NCBI GenBank assembly: GCA_021161825.1
Contig: JAGGZW010000114.1
Location: forward strand, 1 to 33,602
DNA length: 33,602 bases
DNA from: Thermoproteales archaeon
Lineage (GTDB): Archaea; Thermoproteota; Thermoprotei; Thermofilales; B69-G16
Direction of reading: 5' to 3'
Within the stretch, counting starts at the first letter, position 1, and every line of letters begins with the position of its first letter. Below the pieces are notes generated by a model. That model was given only the letters and a program-made list of their open reading frames with translations. It was not told the DNA's origin and did no database searches. Made by a program: the position numbers and the translations under genes. This document shows, piece by piece, positions 21,848 to 26,807 of the stretch.

Positions 21848-22228
21848 ATGCGAGTAACCGTTGAAAACCTCCTATGGGTTGTCGCTGCAATAATAGCAGC
21901 TGCAATAGTTATAGGAGTTTTAATTGCCTATGCCCAGAGCGGAAGCCAAAGAGCGGATTTCATGGTCTACGACATCCAAGCATATAGCGATGGAACAGTA
22001 TACTTCACAGTTAAAAACATGGGCACAGTCCCCATAACGCAGGTAACAATAGATGGTACAGTTGCTTCAGCAACGGGTATAACAGCTCTTGAAGGTGGTC
22101 AGGAAGCATAGTATGTGGCTTCAGGCTTAACATTGACTGCAGGCGAATACCACGAGTTTACTATAGTAGCAACCTTCAGTAACGGGCAGGAAAAAATCCT
22201 AAGGCAGCGAGTTATAGTTAAAAGCTAA
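21848..22228 (+). pseudogene. Archaeal type IV pilin-like gene interrupted by an in-frame amber codon
   Basis: The frame opens at ATG 21848 with GGTGA just upstream. It codes for a pilin-like protein: the hydrophobic N-terminal helix NLLWVVAAIIAAAIVIGVLI, then a beta-rich domain with VYFTVKNMGTVPITQVTI. A TAG at 22109-22111 stops it after 87 residues. The same frame then runs on for 38 sensible residues (YVASGLTLTAGEYHEF...) to TAA at 22226, including the beta strands expected to finish the domain. The intact protein would have about 126 residues. Suppression or pyrrolysine is unlikely because TAG ends ordinary genes here (eS6, pth2, tmcA). The product is probably truncated and non-functional. 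Confidence 0.7.
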
Positions 22229-22262
22229 AATCTTAACCTTTTTTAGATTACCGCTTTTTTCT
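22229..22262 (+). terminator. T-rich transcription terminator candidate
   Basis: Directly after the pilin frame lie two pyrimidine/T tracts (CCTTTTTT and GCTTTTTTC). Such T runs terminate archaeal RNA polymerase without a hairpin. This would favour a short, abundant pilin mRNA over the downstream ATPase and platform genes. Confidence 0.4.
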
Positions 22263-22263
22263 C

Positions 22264-23198
22264 ATGTCACAATTCAAGCAAATATTTGGAAGCGTAATCG
22301 AGGAATATACTCTTGGCTTTTCAAAAATTAAAATAGTAGATATAGGATACGAGTACATATACACGGTAATACCTCCAGAATTTTCTGAACAAGAAAAGAG
22401 CGAAATAGAGGAAGTCATGGAAAAGCTTGCCTATGTAGTAAAGCCTGAAGAACTTTTAGATCCTGCAAGACTTGAGAAAAAGCTTAGAGAAGAAGGGGTA
22501 AGCGAGAAGGCTATCTACATTATAAACAGCAAGGTAAACGGCTACCGCTGGCTCCAGCCTTTAATGGAGGATCCCAATCTAGAAGATATACACTGCTTCA
22601 AAGCAAATACTGCGATAGGAGTTGTACATAGCAAGTATGGGCTTTTAAAGACGAATATAGTGCCTAGCTGAGGCAGTAAAGATTCTGATTCATACTCAAT
22701 TGTTTAGGGCTAGGAAAAACGGGAAAAAAGTTATAGCTAGGAGAGTAGAGGCTTTATACCTTGTAGAGGGCTTAGACGATTATCATCCAGTAATTTCGCC
22801 TATATTCGAGTTTAACAGGGTTGAAGACTCGCTTAATGAAGGGAATAGTCTTGCTAAAAGCCCTGAACTATGTCGAGGATATTCAGGGAGTAGAGCTTGA
22901 TCATGAACTGGCTTTGAGAGAGGAATTTTTGAAGTATATGACGTTGCTTGGCATAAAAAGGGCTGACGATTTCTGGAGTGTATATGTAAAGTTTAGGAGA
23001 AACCCTGAGCATACTCTTGAAGAGTTTAAAAAAGCCGTAGCCAAGAGGAAGGAATGGGAGATGCCTACAAAATACCAGATAGTAGCCTCGCTGGAGGAGA
23101 TAAAATTCTGTCCAAGATGTGGGGCAGAGCTTGAACTCGGCAGCCCGACATGTCTCAAGTACGGCTTCAAGCTTGTTATAAAGAGGGAGGTGGAATAA
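22264..23198 (+). pseudogene. Secretion/pilus ATPase (GspE/FlaI-like), core deleted and frameshifted
   Basis: The first piece (22264-22671) is the N-terminal domain of an archaeal type II/IV secretion ATPase, ending NLEDIHCFKANTAIG, VVHSKYGLLKTNI. Immediately after it, in another frame (about 22672-22865), comes the extreme C-terminal region (AVKILIHTQLF, RRVEALYLVEGLDDYHP, IFEFNRVEDSL). A second shift near 22857-22868 restores the tail ELALREEFLKYM up to 23198. Everything between, including Walker A, the Asp box and Walker B, is missing: a deletion of an estimated 200-270 codons. The tail carries an added zinc-ribbon-like CPRCGAELELGSPTC. It cannot hydrolyse ATP. Confidence 0.8.
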
Positions 23199-23350
23199 TG
23201 CACTTCATTATATGCGAAAAATGCGGGAAAAGGTTCTATTATCAAGGCTCAAGCCCCGAAACTAACGCTTACTGTCCTAGATGCATGAAGTCATGCTATC
23301 TTAAAATAGGTGGTGGAGATGCTGGAAGCCTTAAAAAGGGCGAGGGATAA
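23198..23350 (+). CDS. Small zinc-ribbon protein in the pilus locus
   Basis: A 50-residue protein with CEKCGKRF at the start and CPRCMKSC in the middle, a treble-clef or rubredoxin-like four-Cys zinc site. It has a strong Shine-Dalgarno (GGGAGGTGG) and its ATG overlaps the TAA of the ATPase remnant as TAATG, indicating translational coupling. Its last ten codons overlap the start of the platform gene. It is the only intact frame between two broken genes. Role unknown; it might have been an accessory to the ATPase, whose tail carries a similar ribbon. Confidence 0.55.
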   Translation: MHFIICEKCGKRFYYQGSSPETNAYCPRCMKSCYLKIGGGDAGSLKKGEG

Positions 23351-24436
23351 AGCGCATAAAAGACTGATACTTGGAGAGCCTAAAGGTCTAGGATTGAAAG
23401 CATTGCTGAAATACAAGGCTCAACTTTCTAAGCTTGAGAGAGAAGCACCATTCGCAGCTATAGCCGTAAACATAGCAGTTGAGAGCGGCTTAGACTCTGT
23501 AAAGTCGTTTGAGGCTCTGGAAAATTTGGACAGCCTGCCAGCCTGCAGCTTCGAGGCTAAAAGGATTAGACGTGACTGTATAATATTTGCTAGGCATCCT
23601 TTGGAGCAGTTGAGGCTTGAAGTTAAAGATGCCTTAGGGCTTTGGAAGAAGCTTTTAAGCACTATAGTTACTATCGAGGCTACGGGATTAGATCCAAAAC
23701 TAATATTTAAAGACCTTAGAAACCTAATACTTGCAGACTTGAGAGCTGACTATGAAAGACTTGCAGAAAGATTCAAGACATTAGTCTCTACTGCAAGCGT
23801 CCTCTTCGGAGCAATGCCAATGATGATAGCTGTAACATTATCGCTTTTCGCAAGCAGCAGCATAATACCCCTAATGCTTTCACTAGCGCTTGCAAACGCA
23901 GTCATAGCCGGCTTATGGATTATGAGCGTAGACTTCCAAGTCCCCGACACGGCTGACTACTCGGGATTCTACAAGTCGGCCCTAGTAAAGTGGCTTCCTA
24001 TAGGCTTGGCAGTCGGCTTAGCCACTTATTTTGCTTGGATAGTAATATCATTCACTTTAACGCTTAGAAGCACTGCAAGCCTATGCCTTGGAACCATAGC
24101 GTTCAGCCTACCCTTCTACCTAGACTGGAAACGGCAGACTAATGTTTTCAACGAGCTGCTTGACGATTTACCTCTCGTCTTGAGGGACATTGCCGAGCAG
24201 GTTGATAGAGAATTTAAGAGAAGCCTTCTACAGGTGTCTAAGCCACGTAATTATACTGACTGCTTTAACCAGCACGGCTGTGATAATGGGCAACCCCCCT
24301 GATACTATTGCTTGGAGGCTTCGGGGCAGGCTTATTCCTAGCATCCGCAATAGTCTACCCGAGCGAGATGGACAAAACCGAGAGATTCTACAAGTCTACC
24401 ATGCTCATCTATTCTCTGGGAGTATTATTCCTATAG
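23319..24436 (+). pseudogene. Pilus platform membrane protein (TadC/FlaJ-like), deleted and frameshifted
   Basis: ATG 23319 follows GGTGGTGG. The first ~300 residues are one GspF-type module plus membrane hairpins: a helical cytosolic part, TASVLFGAMPMMIAVTLSL, and later TIAFSLPFYLDWKRQ with DDLPLVLRDIAEQV, the usual start of the second module. Most of that second module is missing. After about 24230 the sequence jumps to frame 2 (SHVIILTALTSTAVIMGN), then at the C6 run 24294-24299 to frame 3 (LILLLGGFGAGLFLASAIVY ... GVLFL, stop 24434-24436), which is a plausible C-terminal membrane end. One deletion and two frame changes make a working platform unlikely. Confidence 0.72.
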
Positions 24437-24437
24437 G

Positions 24438-24449
24438 ATAAAATAAATA
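24438..24449 (+). promoter_or_regulatory. TATA box for the first ACT-V4R gene
   Basis: ATAAAATAAATA, directly after the stop of the platform remnant. Its centre is about 27 bases before the ATG at 24471, the standard archaeal distance to the transcription start, so the mRNA would begin at or next to that ATG (leaderless). This supports the ATG upstream of the G tract as a real start. Confidence 0.55.
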
Positions 24450-24470: not shown

Positions 24471-24536
24471 ATGGTGTATAGAATGAATTATCGCCCCGAG
24501 ACCGCTTTTCACGATACCTCGCCGGGGGGGGGGTGA
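24471..24536 (+). CDS. 21-codon leader frame ending at the G10 tract
   Basis: ATG 24471 opens a short frame (MVYRMNYRPETAFHDTSPGGG) that reads into the ten-G tract and ends at TGA 24534-24536. That TGA overlaps the GTG (24533) of the ACT-V4R frame as GTGA, the classic stop/start overlap for translational re-initiation. With eleven (or eight) G the leader would instead fuse in frame to the downstream protein. It may be either the N-terminus of a phase-variable protein or a coupling leader peptide. Confidence 0.45.
   Translation: MVYRMNYRPETAFHDTSPGGG
24524..24533 (+). repeat. Mononucleotide tract G10 (first ACT-V4R gene)
   Basis: Ten consecutive G at the junction between the leader frame and the ACT-V4R frame. 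Other G or C runs I noticed in this AT-rich window do not exceed six. Slipped-strand changes of one G here switch between in-frame fusion (8 or 11 G), leader plus GTGA coupling (10 G) and a third frame (9 G). Confidence 0.85.
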
Positions 24537-25243
24537 GAGAGAGATATTTTCCCGAGAGGAAAGTGGTTTTGATTAGTGTTGAACTCGATGATAAGGGTGA
24601 CTATGCCTTAGAACCTGTTAAGCTGTTCTCCAAGTATGGGGTTAAAATGCTTAGTTGTATTGTACAATCTCATCCTGATAGGGGTGCTGTTCATGCTTCG
24701 CTATTTCTCGATTTAACAGAAGCCAGCATAGATAAGAACGCATTGATAGTAGAGTTGAAGGCTTTGCCTCATGTAAAGAATATAGAATTGCTAGATTTGC
24801 CTTTTGCCCATGGAGAAGCTAGGCTAGTACTTTTCACTTTAGAAGAGATGCATAATTTATTCAAGGTACTTAGAAAACTTGGAGCCGGTGGCTTAGCGAT
24901 AATATATCATATGGGTTTTAAAGCCGGCGAGGCTATAGCAACTAAACTCTCCGGATATTTTGAAGACGGCAAAAAAGCATTGGAATACTTGTTACTCTAC
25001 TATGAGAGCTTAGGGCATGGAAGATTTAGAATGAAAAGCTATGTCGACGGAATATATTGCAGAGTAGTTGCTAGAGAGCTTTTAGAGTGTATAGATGTTA
25101 GCAGCGGCGAGCCTAACAGCCAACTGCTTAGAGGAATACTTGCAGGATTTCTTTCCAAGCTTTGGGGTAGAGAGGTTAAGGTTGTAGAGACAAAGTGTAT
25201 AGCTAAAGGGGATCCCTGTTGCGAGTTTGAAGCAAAAGCTTAA
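24533..25243 (+). CDS. ACT-V4R domain protein, paralogue 1
   Basis: About 236 residues. The N-terminal ~90 form an ACT-like regulatory domain (KVVLISVELD, LFSKYGVKMLSCIV, HASLFLDLTE). The rest is a V4R domain, a small-molecule-binding fold: GGLAIIYHMGFKAGEAIA, LLRGILAGFLSKLWG and the signature KCIAKGDPCCEF near the end. No DNA-binding or enzymatic domain is visible, so a sensor or adaptor role is inferred. The possible GTG start is the last base of the G10 tract, and the true start may be ATG 24471 when the tract length allows. The stop overlaps the convergent membrane gene by four bases. A paralogue lies at 26033-26807. Confidence 0.75.
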   Translation: MRERYFPERKVVLISVELDDKGDYALEPVKLFSKYGVKMLSCIVQSHPDRGAVHASLFLDLTEASIDKNALIVELKALPHVKNIELLDLPFAHGEARLVLFTLEEMHNLFKVLRKLGAGGLAIIYHMGFKAGEAIATKLSGYFEDGKKALEYLLLYYESLGHGRFRMKSYVDGIYCRVVARELLECIDVSSGEPNSQLLRGILAGFLSKLWGREVKVVETKCIAKGDPCCEFEAKA

Positions 25244-26058
25244 ATAATTGGCGCTTGTCTGCTGTAGACATAAATTCCCGTAGCTATGACTATATAACTT
25301 ATAACGTATAGTAAATCTAGAATATTTCCCGGATAGTAGCCGCCTATAACAAAGTAGGGTAGATCGCTTATTGCTAATAAGGCTAGTCCCGTTGAGAAAA
25401 GTATATTGCATTCAGCAGCTTTCCCTCCATAGAAGAATATCGTTGCCTCAAGCGAGAGAGCGAAGAGTATTAAGTCCAGGATGATGTAAGAAGTATCTAC
25501 TATTACTGTTAACAAGTCTTCCCTGGCTAAAGTATCTGGAATTGCGGCGAGAGTTGTTCCGATTAGTATGGCTCCTATAACTAGGGGACTTGCATAAATT
25601 ACTTTAGTTTTATAGTCTAGACCCGCGCTTTTAACTATGGAGTATAAGGGTTTGACGCTTTTGTAGAGGCCTGCTAATATGAATACGTATCCAAATATCC
25701 AAGCTAGGTCTGCAATTGAGAGCTCCTGCGGCTCTCCAAGGAGTATAATGTAAGTTAGCCATATTGTTTCAGCTGTAAGCCATAATCCTATTCCTATGGA
25801 TATGTAGAACCATGAAGCTTTTAAAAGATCATAGAGTATCCACTTCTGCCTATTTAAGACTTTTAAGCTAGCCCAAAAAGAAAATCCAGCAGTTAAAACT
25901 GTTAACGTGTTTAAATATAGTTCAACATATTGAGGCTCAGAGTAGGTAGACAAGATTATAAAAACCATTATTACAATTATTATCGATAAAGCAGATATGA
26001 GATATATCTTTTGATGTCCTATACTAACTAAGCTATACTTTTTCTGTATAGAATTCAC
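25240..26058 (-). CDS. Eight-helix membrane protein, possible sensor module
   Basis: About 272 residues with eight hydrophobic segments and short loops. A loop pattern GIGLWLTAETIWLTYIILLG followed by SIADLAWIFGYVFILAGL resembles the helical membrane input domains (MASE-like) found in front of bacterial and archaeal signalling enzymes; no output domain follows here. Start: the frame opens at TTG 26079, but GTG 26058 has GGTGA eight bases before it and is preferred. It overlaps the 3' end of paralogue 2 by about 26 bases on the same strand, so the two are translationally coupled and probably act together. Partnership with the cytosolic ACT-V4R protein is an inference from coupling. Confidence 0.65.
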   Translation of the reverse strand: MNSIQKKYSLVSIGHQKIYLISALSIIIVIMVFIILSTYSEPQYVELYLNTLTVLTAGFSFWASLKVLNRQKWILYDLLKASWFYISIGIGLWLTAETIWLTYIILLGEPQELSIADLAWIFGYVFILAGLYKSVKPLYSIVKSAGLDYKTKVIYASPLVIGAILIGTTLAAIPDTLAREDLLTVIVDTSYIILDLILFALSLEATIFFYGGKAAECNILFSTGLALLAISDLPYFVIGGYYPGNILDLLYVISYIVIATGIYVYSRQAPII

Positions 26059-26807
26059 AGTATGGATCACCTTTCGCAATACATTTAGATTCTATTACTC
26101 TTACATCGGTTTTTAGTAGTCCTGATAATAATCCGCTTAAATGTCCTCTTATCAACTGGCTCATAGGCTTATCTGAGCCTTCAAAAGCCTTACATTCAAT
26201 CGAATCGTATAGTCTTAAGATTATTTTCATTCTATAGGGATGATATTCTATTAGTTCTGCTCGTCCCCATCCGCTTGCTTGATAAATTTTTAGAATTTCT
26301 ATCAGAAGTTCTTCGCCTTTTAATTTTAACTTCTCTGAGAGATAGTCGGCTAGGAATTTCCCTCCTGAATAGGCTAAATGGTATAGGAGAGCTACGGCAC
26401 TTTCTCCTGCTTTCTCGTATAAGCCTTTAATCATTTCTTGGAAATCGTGTTCAAGTAGTATAATTGATCTAGCGCCCGGAAATACGTATAAGGGGAATGC
26501 AAATTCGTCTATCATAAAGCCTTTTACGGGAGATTTCTTAACTCCCCCCCCCCGTCGCAGTTTCCAGCTCTCTTCTTACTTGCTCGACGTTAACGTCGAG
26601 GTTTGTAATGTCTGCGAATATAAACACTGTTTGTCTCTGCCATTCGGGTAGTGCATAAGCGCTTAGGCTTAGAATATTTATTCCGTACTTTGCGAATATT
26701 TCAAGAACTTTTTCTAGTTGTCCAGGCTGGTTAGATATTGTAAAATAGAATTCTACAATATCCCTGCTCCTAGCGTATATCATCCATGGAATATATTTTT
26801 CAAACAC
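26033..26807 (-). CDS. ACT-V4R domain protein, paralogue 2, split by a G10 tract (currently out of frame)
   Basis: Two frames make up one protein. The first, from GTG 26807, encodes an ACT domain (IVEFYFTISNQPGQLEKVLE, FAKYGINILSLS, TVFIFADITN) and ends ETATGGGS at a TAA just past the tract. The second, 26033-26515 and open upstream to the tract, encodes the V4R domain (SAVALLYHLAYSGGKFLA, SQLIRGHLSGLLSGL, KCIAKGDPYCEF). With 9 or 12 G the two join through GVKKSPVKGFMIDEF; with the 10 present they do not. Order and motifs equal paralogue 1. A TATA-like ATTTATGC about 26 bases before GTG 26807 suggests a leaderless start. The eight-helix membrane gene follows with overlap. It is phase-variable, or a pseudogene, or a sequencing error in the tract. 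Confidence 0.72.
26544..26553 (-). repeat. Mononucleotide tract G10 (second ACT-V4R gene)
   Basis: Ten G on the coding (minus) strand, located between the ACT and V4R halves of paralogue 2. Nine or twelve G would give one continuous protein; ten or eleven give a stop shortly after the tract. The same tract length as in paralogue 1, at a different place in the gene. Confidence 0.85.

Follow-up and report, generated by a model that had tools for sequence, protein, structure and literature searches.

Phase variation by slippage in DNA repeats is known almost only from bacteria, most of them host-associated. The closest described systems are the poly-G/poly-C contingency loci of Campylobacter and Neisseria, in which a tract of about 8–12 G or C residues lies in or upstream of a coding region and a change by one base shifts the frame. 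Sensors are also targets of homopolymer switching in bacteria, as exemplified by the poly-C tract of bvgS in Bordetella. For archaea, Fitz-Gibbon et al. are said to have described in PNAS in 2002 that long G/C runs of Pyrobaculum aerophilum are variable, and to have tied this to missing mismatch repair.

The loci described here have the same kind of tract as those of Campylobacter and Neisseria, but they occur in a thermophilic archaeon that lacks MutS, they concern genes for ACT-V4R sensors and a TFB-like gene, and their switching is a prediction. Pyrobaculum aerophilum, which presumably belongs to the same class of archaea, also has long G/C runs; there, however, they were read as a mutator state across many genes, whereas only three loci are concerned here. 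Homopolymer phase variation in mycobacteria (PMC11551767) likewise occurs with NucS present and MutS absent, and homopolymer indels persist. In contrast to the present case, mycobacteria are bacterial, and their tracts are in other genes.

Among the papers searched, none dealt directly with archaeal homopolymer phase variation. A genome survey including archaea described poly-A/T tracts near 5' ends (PMC2831843), and a 2025 review left archaeal loci to future work (PMC11868660). Slippage phase variation is a known mechanism, but its application to a family of sensors in archaea appears to be new. The new elements are that the tracts occur in an archaeon, that one family of sensors is targeted repeatedly, and that a TFB-like gene has a tract in its upstream region.

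Frame Logic of Two G10 Tracts

The window, i.e., the whole stretch of 33,602 nucleotides that was analyzed, is contig C114 of a draft assembly of 1.67 Mb in 132 contigs. Reverse gyrase and other proteins encoded in the window, together with the nearest named homologue (from a Thermofilaceae MAG, 60% identity), suggest that the host belongs to the order Thermofilales or is close to it. A sequence-only reading had reported ten-G runs at 24524-24533 and 26544-26553, in two genes that are called p1 and p2 (paralogue 1 and paralogue 2) in the following. The coordinates proved to be exact, and both runs are on the coding strand of their gene. It was also borne out that the other G/C runs of the window do not exceed six: apart from the two tracts, G runs have a length of at most five, and there are three C6 runs. 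A first-order Markov estimate predicted 0.006 runs of at least ten per window, compared to the two observed. The features of the region are as follows:

24440..24449, + strand: putative TATA-like box AAAATAAATA, 22-31 bases before ATG24471
24471..24536, + strand: p1 leader ORF at 10 G, MVYRMNYRPETAFHDTSPGGG-stop; ends in a TGA that overlaps GTG24533
24524..24533, + strand: p1 G10 tract; 8 or 11 G give an open frame
24533..25243, + strand: p1 ACT-V4R coding frame; ACT spans about residues 11-89, and V4R extends up to the C-terminus (Pfam, AlphaFold, Foldseek)
25240..26079, - strand: membrane protein for which about 7-8 TM segments are predicted; lies directly behind p2 and is convergent with p1
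26033..26543, - strand: V4R half of p2, read in the V4R frame (Pfam V4R, 51 bits)
26538..26807, - strand: p2 ACT half with GTG start at 26807 (Pfam ACT, 31 bits); at 10 G it stops just past the tract
26544..26553, - strand: p2 G10 tract in the linker between ACT and V4R; 9 or 12 G give an open frame

The joining lengths were recomputed for both genes over 7-13 G, and the results agreed with the earlier claims. From ATG24471, p1 is open into the ACT-V4R frame only with 8 or 11 G, and the ACT and V4R halves of p2 fuse only with 9 or 12 G. Thus, by computation, gain or loss of one G moves each gene in or out of frame. Based on the tract lengths of the assembled sequence, both genes would be off or reduced at 10 G. 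In the 10-G state of p1 the stop codon of the leader ORF (TGA 24534-24536) overlaps a GTG in the ACT-V4R frame (24533-24535), forming GTGA. Because of this overlap the 10-G state may represent lowered, not zero, expression, with a possible low-level restart.

The spacing from the TATA-like box to ATG24471 suggests that the p1 transcript is leaderless. Tractless p1 orthologues have A+T-rich boxes at a similar spacing from their own start codon. A plain Shine-Dalgarno role of the p1 tract was considered and rejected, because most orthologues start ahead of the site, at TATA distance downstream of an A+T-rich box.

p1 and p2 Encode ACT-V4R Proteins

Both p1 and p2 are ACT-V4R proteins. The V4R domain (PF02830) was detected in p1 and p2 with 46.8 and 51.4 bits, respectively (Pfam cut-off 31), and the ACT domain (PF01842) in p2 with 31 bits (cut-off 27). 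Pfam revealed no ACT domain in p1; in this case the assignment comes from the AlphaFold model (mean pLDDT of 74.5, alignment of four sequences), which has an N-terminal beta-alpha-beta-beta-alpha-beta ACT fold and a C-terminal V4R fold. Foldseek matches of the model were the phenol-sensing domains of PoxR, MopR and DmpR, the V4R protein MJ1460, Bet3, and ACT domains, e.g., that of IlvN. The C-terminal fold resembles PoxR, MopR, DmpR and the V4R of MJ1460 (E about 1e-7), the N-terminal fold ACT domains such as IlvN. In contrast to PoxR, MopR and DmpR, p1 and p2 have no attached AAA+ or DNA-binding domain, and an ACT domain is fused N-terminally. The two proteins thus have the appearance of sensors for small molecules that lack a DNA-binding domain.

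The host genome has about ten V4R genes, two of which are p1 and p2. They are not close twins, and each has its own orthologues. Neither gene has a lesion other than the tract. The two p2 halves are 61% and 73% identical to those of the genome G008, and the differences are mostly at third positions, which shows that coding constraint has been kept on both halves; it is given as codon-position counts only because dS is saturated.

The neighborhood of the two genes was also inspected. The membrane protein between them had no match in a Pfam search, and a copy with 53% identity on contig C103 faces a further p1-like V4R gene in convergent orientation. On the other side of p1, a decayed type-IV-pilus/archaellum-type cluster was found at 21848-24441. 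It comprises a short pilin-like ORF, an N-terminal fragment of a secretion ATPase, an ORF with a zinc ribbon, and a TadC-like gene whose frame is broken twice, near 24230 and at the C6 run at 24294-24299. Elsewhere in the host genome several V4R genes are near contig ends, and one of them (contig C20, L125 at about 1465) is frame-broken near the contig end, away from a G/C tract.

Tract Spectrum of the Host Genome and the TFB-like Locus

The G/C runs of the host genome were counted genome-wide by pattern search. There are 17 runs of length seven, none of length eight, none of length nine, and three loci with runs of at least ten. With this gap at eight and nine, the long runs do not appear to be simply the upper end of a random length distribution. 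The three loci, and no others, are p1, p2, and the region upstream of a TFB-like gene. The sequence-only reading had named two sensor genes as the switchable set; both are among the tract-bearing genes, and the set is wider in fact, as it includes the upstream region of the TFB-like gene and touches a V4R family of about ten members.

The tract at the TFB-like gene is at a contig break. It was found as C10 on the end of contig C47 (L015 3675-3684) and as C12 on the end of contig C95 (L016 4257-4268). In the congener G002 the tract has a length of 11 (L090 2019-2029), and the order MTAP, MBL-fold protein, tRNA, tract, TFB-like gene, secretion ATPase is present on a single contig. The two host contig ends overlap and are syntenic with G002, and they therefore represent one locus; the alternative of two tract-bearing TFB genes was dropped, because G002 has one locus on one contig. 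The bases past the tract at both contig ends look error-laden, and, thus, the difference between 10 and 12 is weak evidence of a length mixture.

The tract lies 15-23 bases before the TATA-like box GATTTAAAAA of the divergent TFB-like gene. This gene is the first of a type-IV-pilus-like operon, whose products include a type II/IV secretion ATPase and a protein similar to TadC. Its assignment as TFB-like is weak, the two Pfam matches being slightly below their cut-offs.

Recurrence of Tracts at V4R Genes across the Order

For 27 genomes of the order, G/C tract loci of at least nine were counted, and 1 kb was allotted per V4R gene. Of the 31 tract loci, seven were found in or at V4R genes, compared to 0.09 expected (P about 4e-12, with the V4R class picked after p1 and p2 had been seen). 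Without p1 and p2, the count is five of 29. Runs of exactly eight served as the control in the same genomes, and none of these 31 runs was found at a V4R gene; the tracts of at least nine are thus concentrated in one functional class. The seven loci are p1, p2, two in G005, and one each in G010, G023 and G014. A tract on contig C4 of G014, which precedes a V4R gene of a different type by about 90 bases, was regarded as borderline and excluded.

The five further examples have various frame states. The p2 orthologue of G023 is broken exactly at a C12 tract, and each half is intact. An ACT-V4R gene of G010 (contig C68) is broken at a run of nine C. The two V4R genes of G005, with C9 and G9, are both in frame. 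In the V4R gene of G014 the tract is in the leader. Besides the genus of the host, at least three genera of the order have tracts in this gene family. In the p2 orthologues that have a tract (G023, G005), it is located elsewhere than in p2. Because position, base and frame state of the tracts vary between the genes, they were gained independently, several times. The mixture of states fits random snapshots of genes that would be switching.

The orthologues of p1 and p2 without a tract, including those of the congener, are intact, and show that full-length proteins are the norm. The p1 orthologue of G008 has a G5 at the aligned site, which is a plausible seed for a tract. The comparison with relatives, which had been proposed as a check, thus gave a divided answer: tracts are present in the same family in other genera, but those of p1 and p2 are species-specific, and the orthologues of the congener lack them.

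The species specificity is one of the observations that would be expected from neutral slippage and decay, i.e., tracts that grow in a lineage without MutS, and p1 and p2 as young pseudogenes knocked out at the tract. The decay of the adjoining pilus-type cluster, with its truncated ATPase and the two frame breaks in the TadC-like gene, points in the same direction, as does the V4R gene at the end of contig C20, which is broken away from any G tract. On the other hand, the tract is the sole lesion in p1 and in p2, both p2 halves are under coding constraint, and the two tracts of G005 are in frame. Neutral growth also fails to explain that five of the 29 other tracts are located in V4R genes, which make up a few thousandths of the genome, while runs of exactly eight never occur there. 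Neutral decay is therefore regarded as unlikely.

The varying positions also bear on programmed recoding, in which slippage of RNA polymerase or a frameshift of the ribosome at the G/C run would yield a short and a full-length protein from one DNA. Homopolymers of at least eight are typical sites of transcriptional realignment (PMC3711429). However, the shift that would be needed differs: it is -1 base for p2 and the G023 gene, +1 for p1 and the G010 gene, and 0 for the two G005 genes. A programmed site is expected to be conserved, but the tract position is not, even among p2 orthologues, and conservation in both position and direction was not found in the V4R tract genes. Recoding is thus highly improbable.

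Nearly all of the tract-bearing V4R genes are from fragmented drafts. A contig end was located within 800 bases of the tract in seven of the 15 cases checked, and the contigs of G023 have a low listed coverage of about 1.8. Tract lengths in the drafts may be off by one or two. It could thus be argued that the broken frames are assembly or sequencing errors and that every cell in reality has tracts of in-frame length; the fragmentation, the clustering of contig ends at tracts and the error-laden bases at the ends of C47 and C95 would agree with this. But the genes for reverse gyrase, LeuRS, TmcA, TruD, CDC48 and enolase in the window are open throughout, and since these long housekeeping genes are open, the indel error looks low. 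In addition, even a tract of in-frame length, G9 or G12, would count as a long tract in this gene family, and the argument from recurrence would hold. Error as the sole explanation is given a slim chance.

Repair Background

MutS was absent in all 37 genomes searched, in a search that included a working control. NucS was present in 32 of the 37, including the host. NucS of M. smegmatis leaves indels of 1-2 bases unrepaired (PMC11551767), and in S. acidocaldarius frameshifts by one base feature prominently in short runs (PMC4471258). Because MutS is absent and NucS is reportedly blind to indels of 1-2 bases, slippage products should persist.

p1 and p2 as Putative Contingency Loci

The tracts, their frame logic, their recurrence in other genera and the absence of MutS are direct observations, and together with the ACT-V4R identity of the genes they favor the phase variation that had been proposed from the sequence alone. 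We infer slippage in vivo, a change of expression and a selective benefit, and with a probability of about two in three the tracts of p1 and p2 are contingency tracts for ACT-V4R sensors. Slipped-strand mispairing at replication would add Gs to the tracts or remove them, the gain or loss would bring each ACT-V4R gene into frame or take it out of frame, and clonal cells would come to differ in the ACT-V4R sensors they make. The switch of p1 would be at the N-terminus, between the leader ATG24471 and the ACT domain, and would be on at 8 or 11 G and possibly low at 10 G, via the GTGA restart. The switch of p2 would be in the linker between ACT and V4R, and would be on at 9 or 12 G. The evidence does not reach as far as the earlier claim that cells differ in "which sensor is expressed".

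A broader version is more tentative, and we put it at somewhat below even odds. According to this version, a multi-member ACT-V4R family that repeatedly gains poly-G/poly-C switches, together with the gene for the TFB-like basal factor, its pilus-like operon and the variable upstream poly-C tract, would form a phase-variable regulatory layer in Thermofilales-type archaea. If true, one slippage event could switch whole regulons, and the system would be an archaeal counterpart of the switched sensors of bacteria. Phase variation of a sensor family in thermophilic archaea would show that bet-hedging by contingency loci is not bound to hosts or to immune evasion. The loci are named here, and existing reads would allow their tract lengths to be counted.

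Long G/C Tracts at Other Places

In Thermofilum-like genomes the tracts are mostly at other or unassigned places. Two intergenic tracts of G010 (L093 1989-1998 and L094 2008-2016) share a flanking element, CGACGCCATTCA-C9/10 ... CTTTCTGGCG, which is perhaps a repeated promoter or a mobile element that carries its own tract. In G012 a G9 run splits a gene near the end of contig C176 (L096 2048-2056), and this is a candidate frame switch. The genomes G028-G057 (family f9, genus g17), which are probably Pyrobaculum, have up to 31 G/C runs of at least nine per genome, and the p1 ACT-V4R query had no match in any of them. The longest run among the tract loci fetched from relatives is a C18 on contig C8 of G040 (L118 2074-2091).
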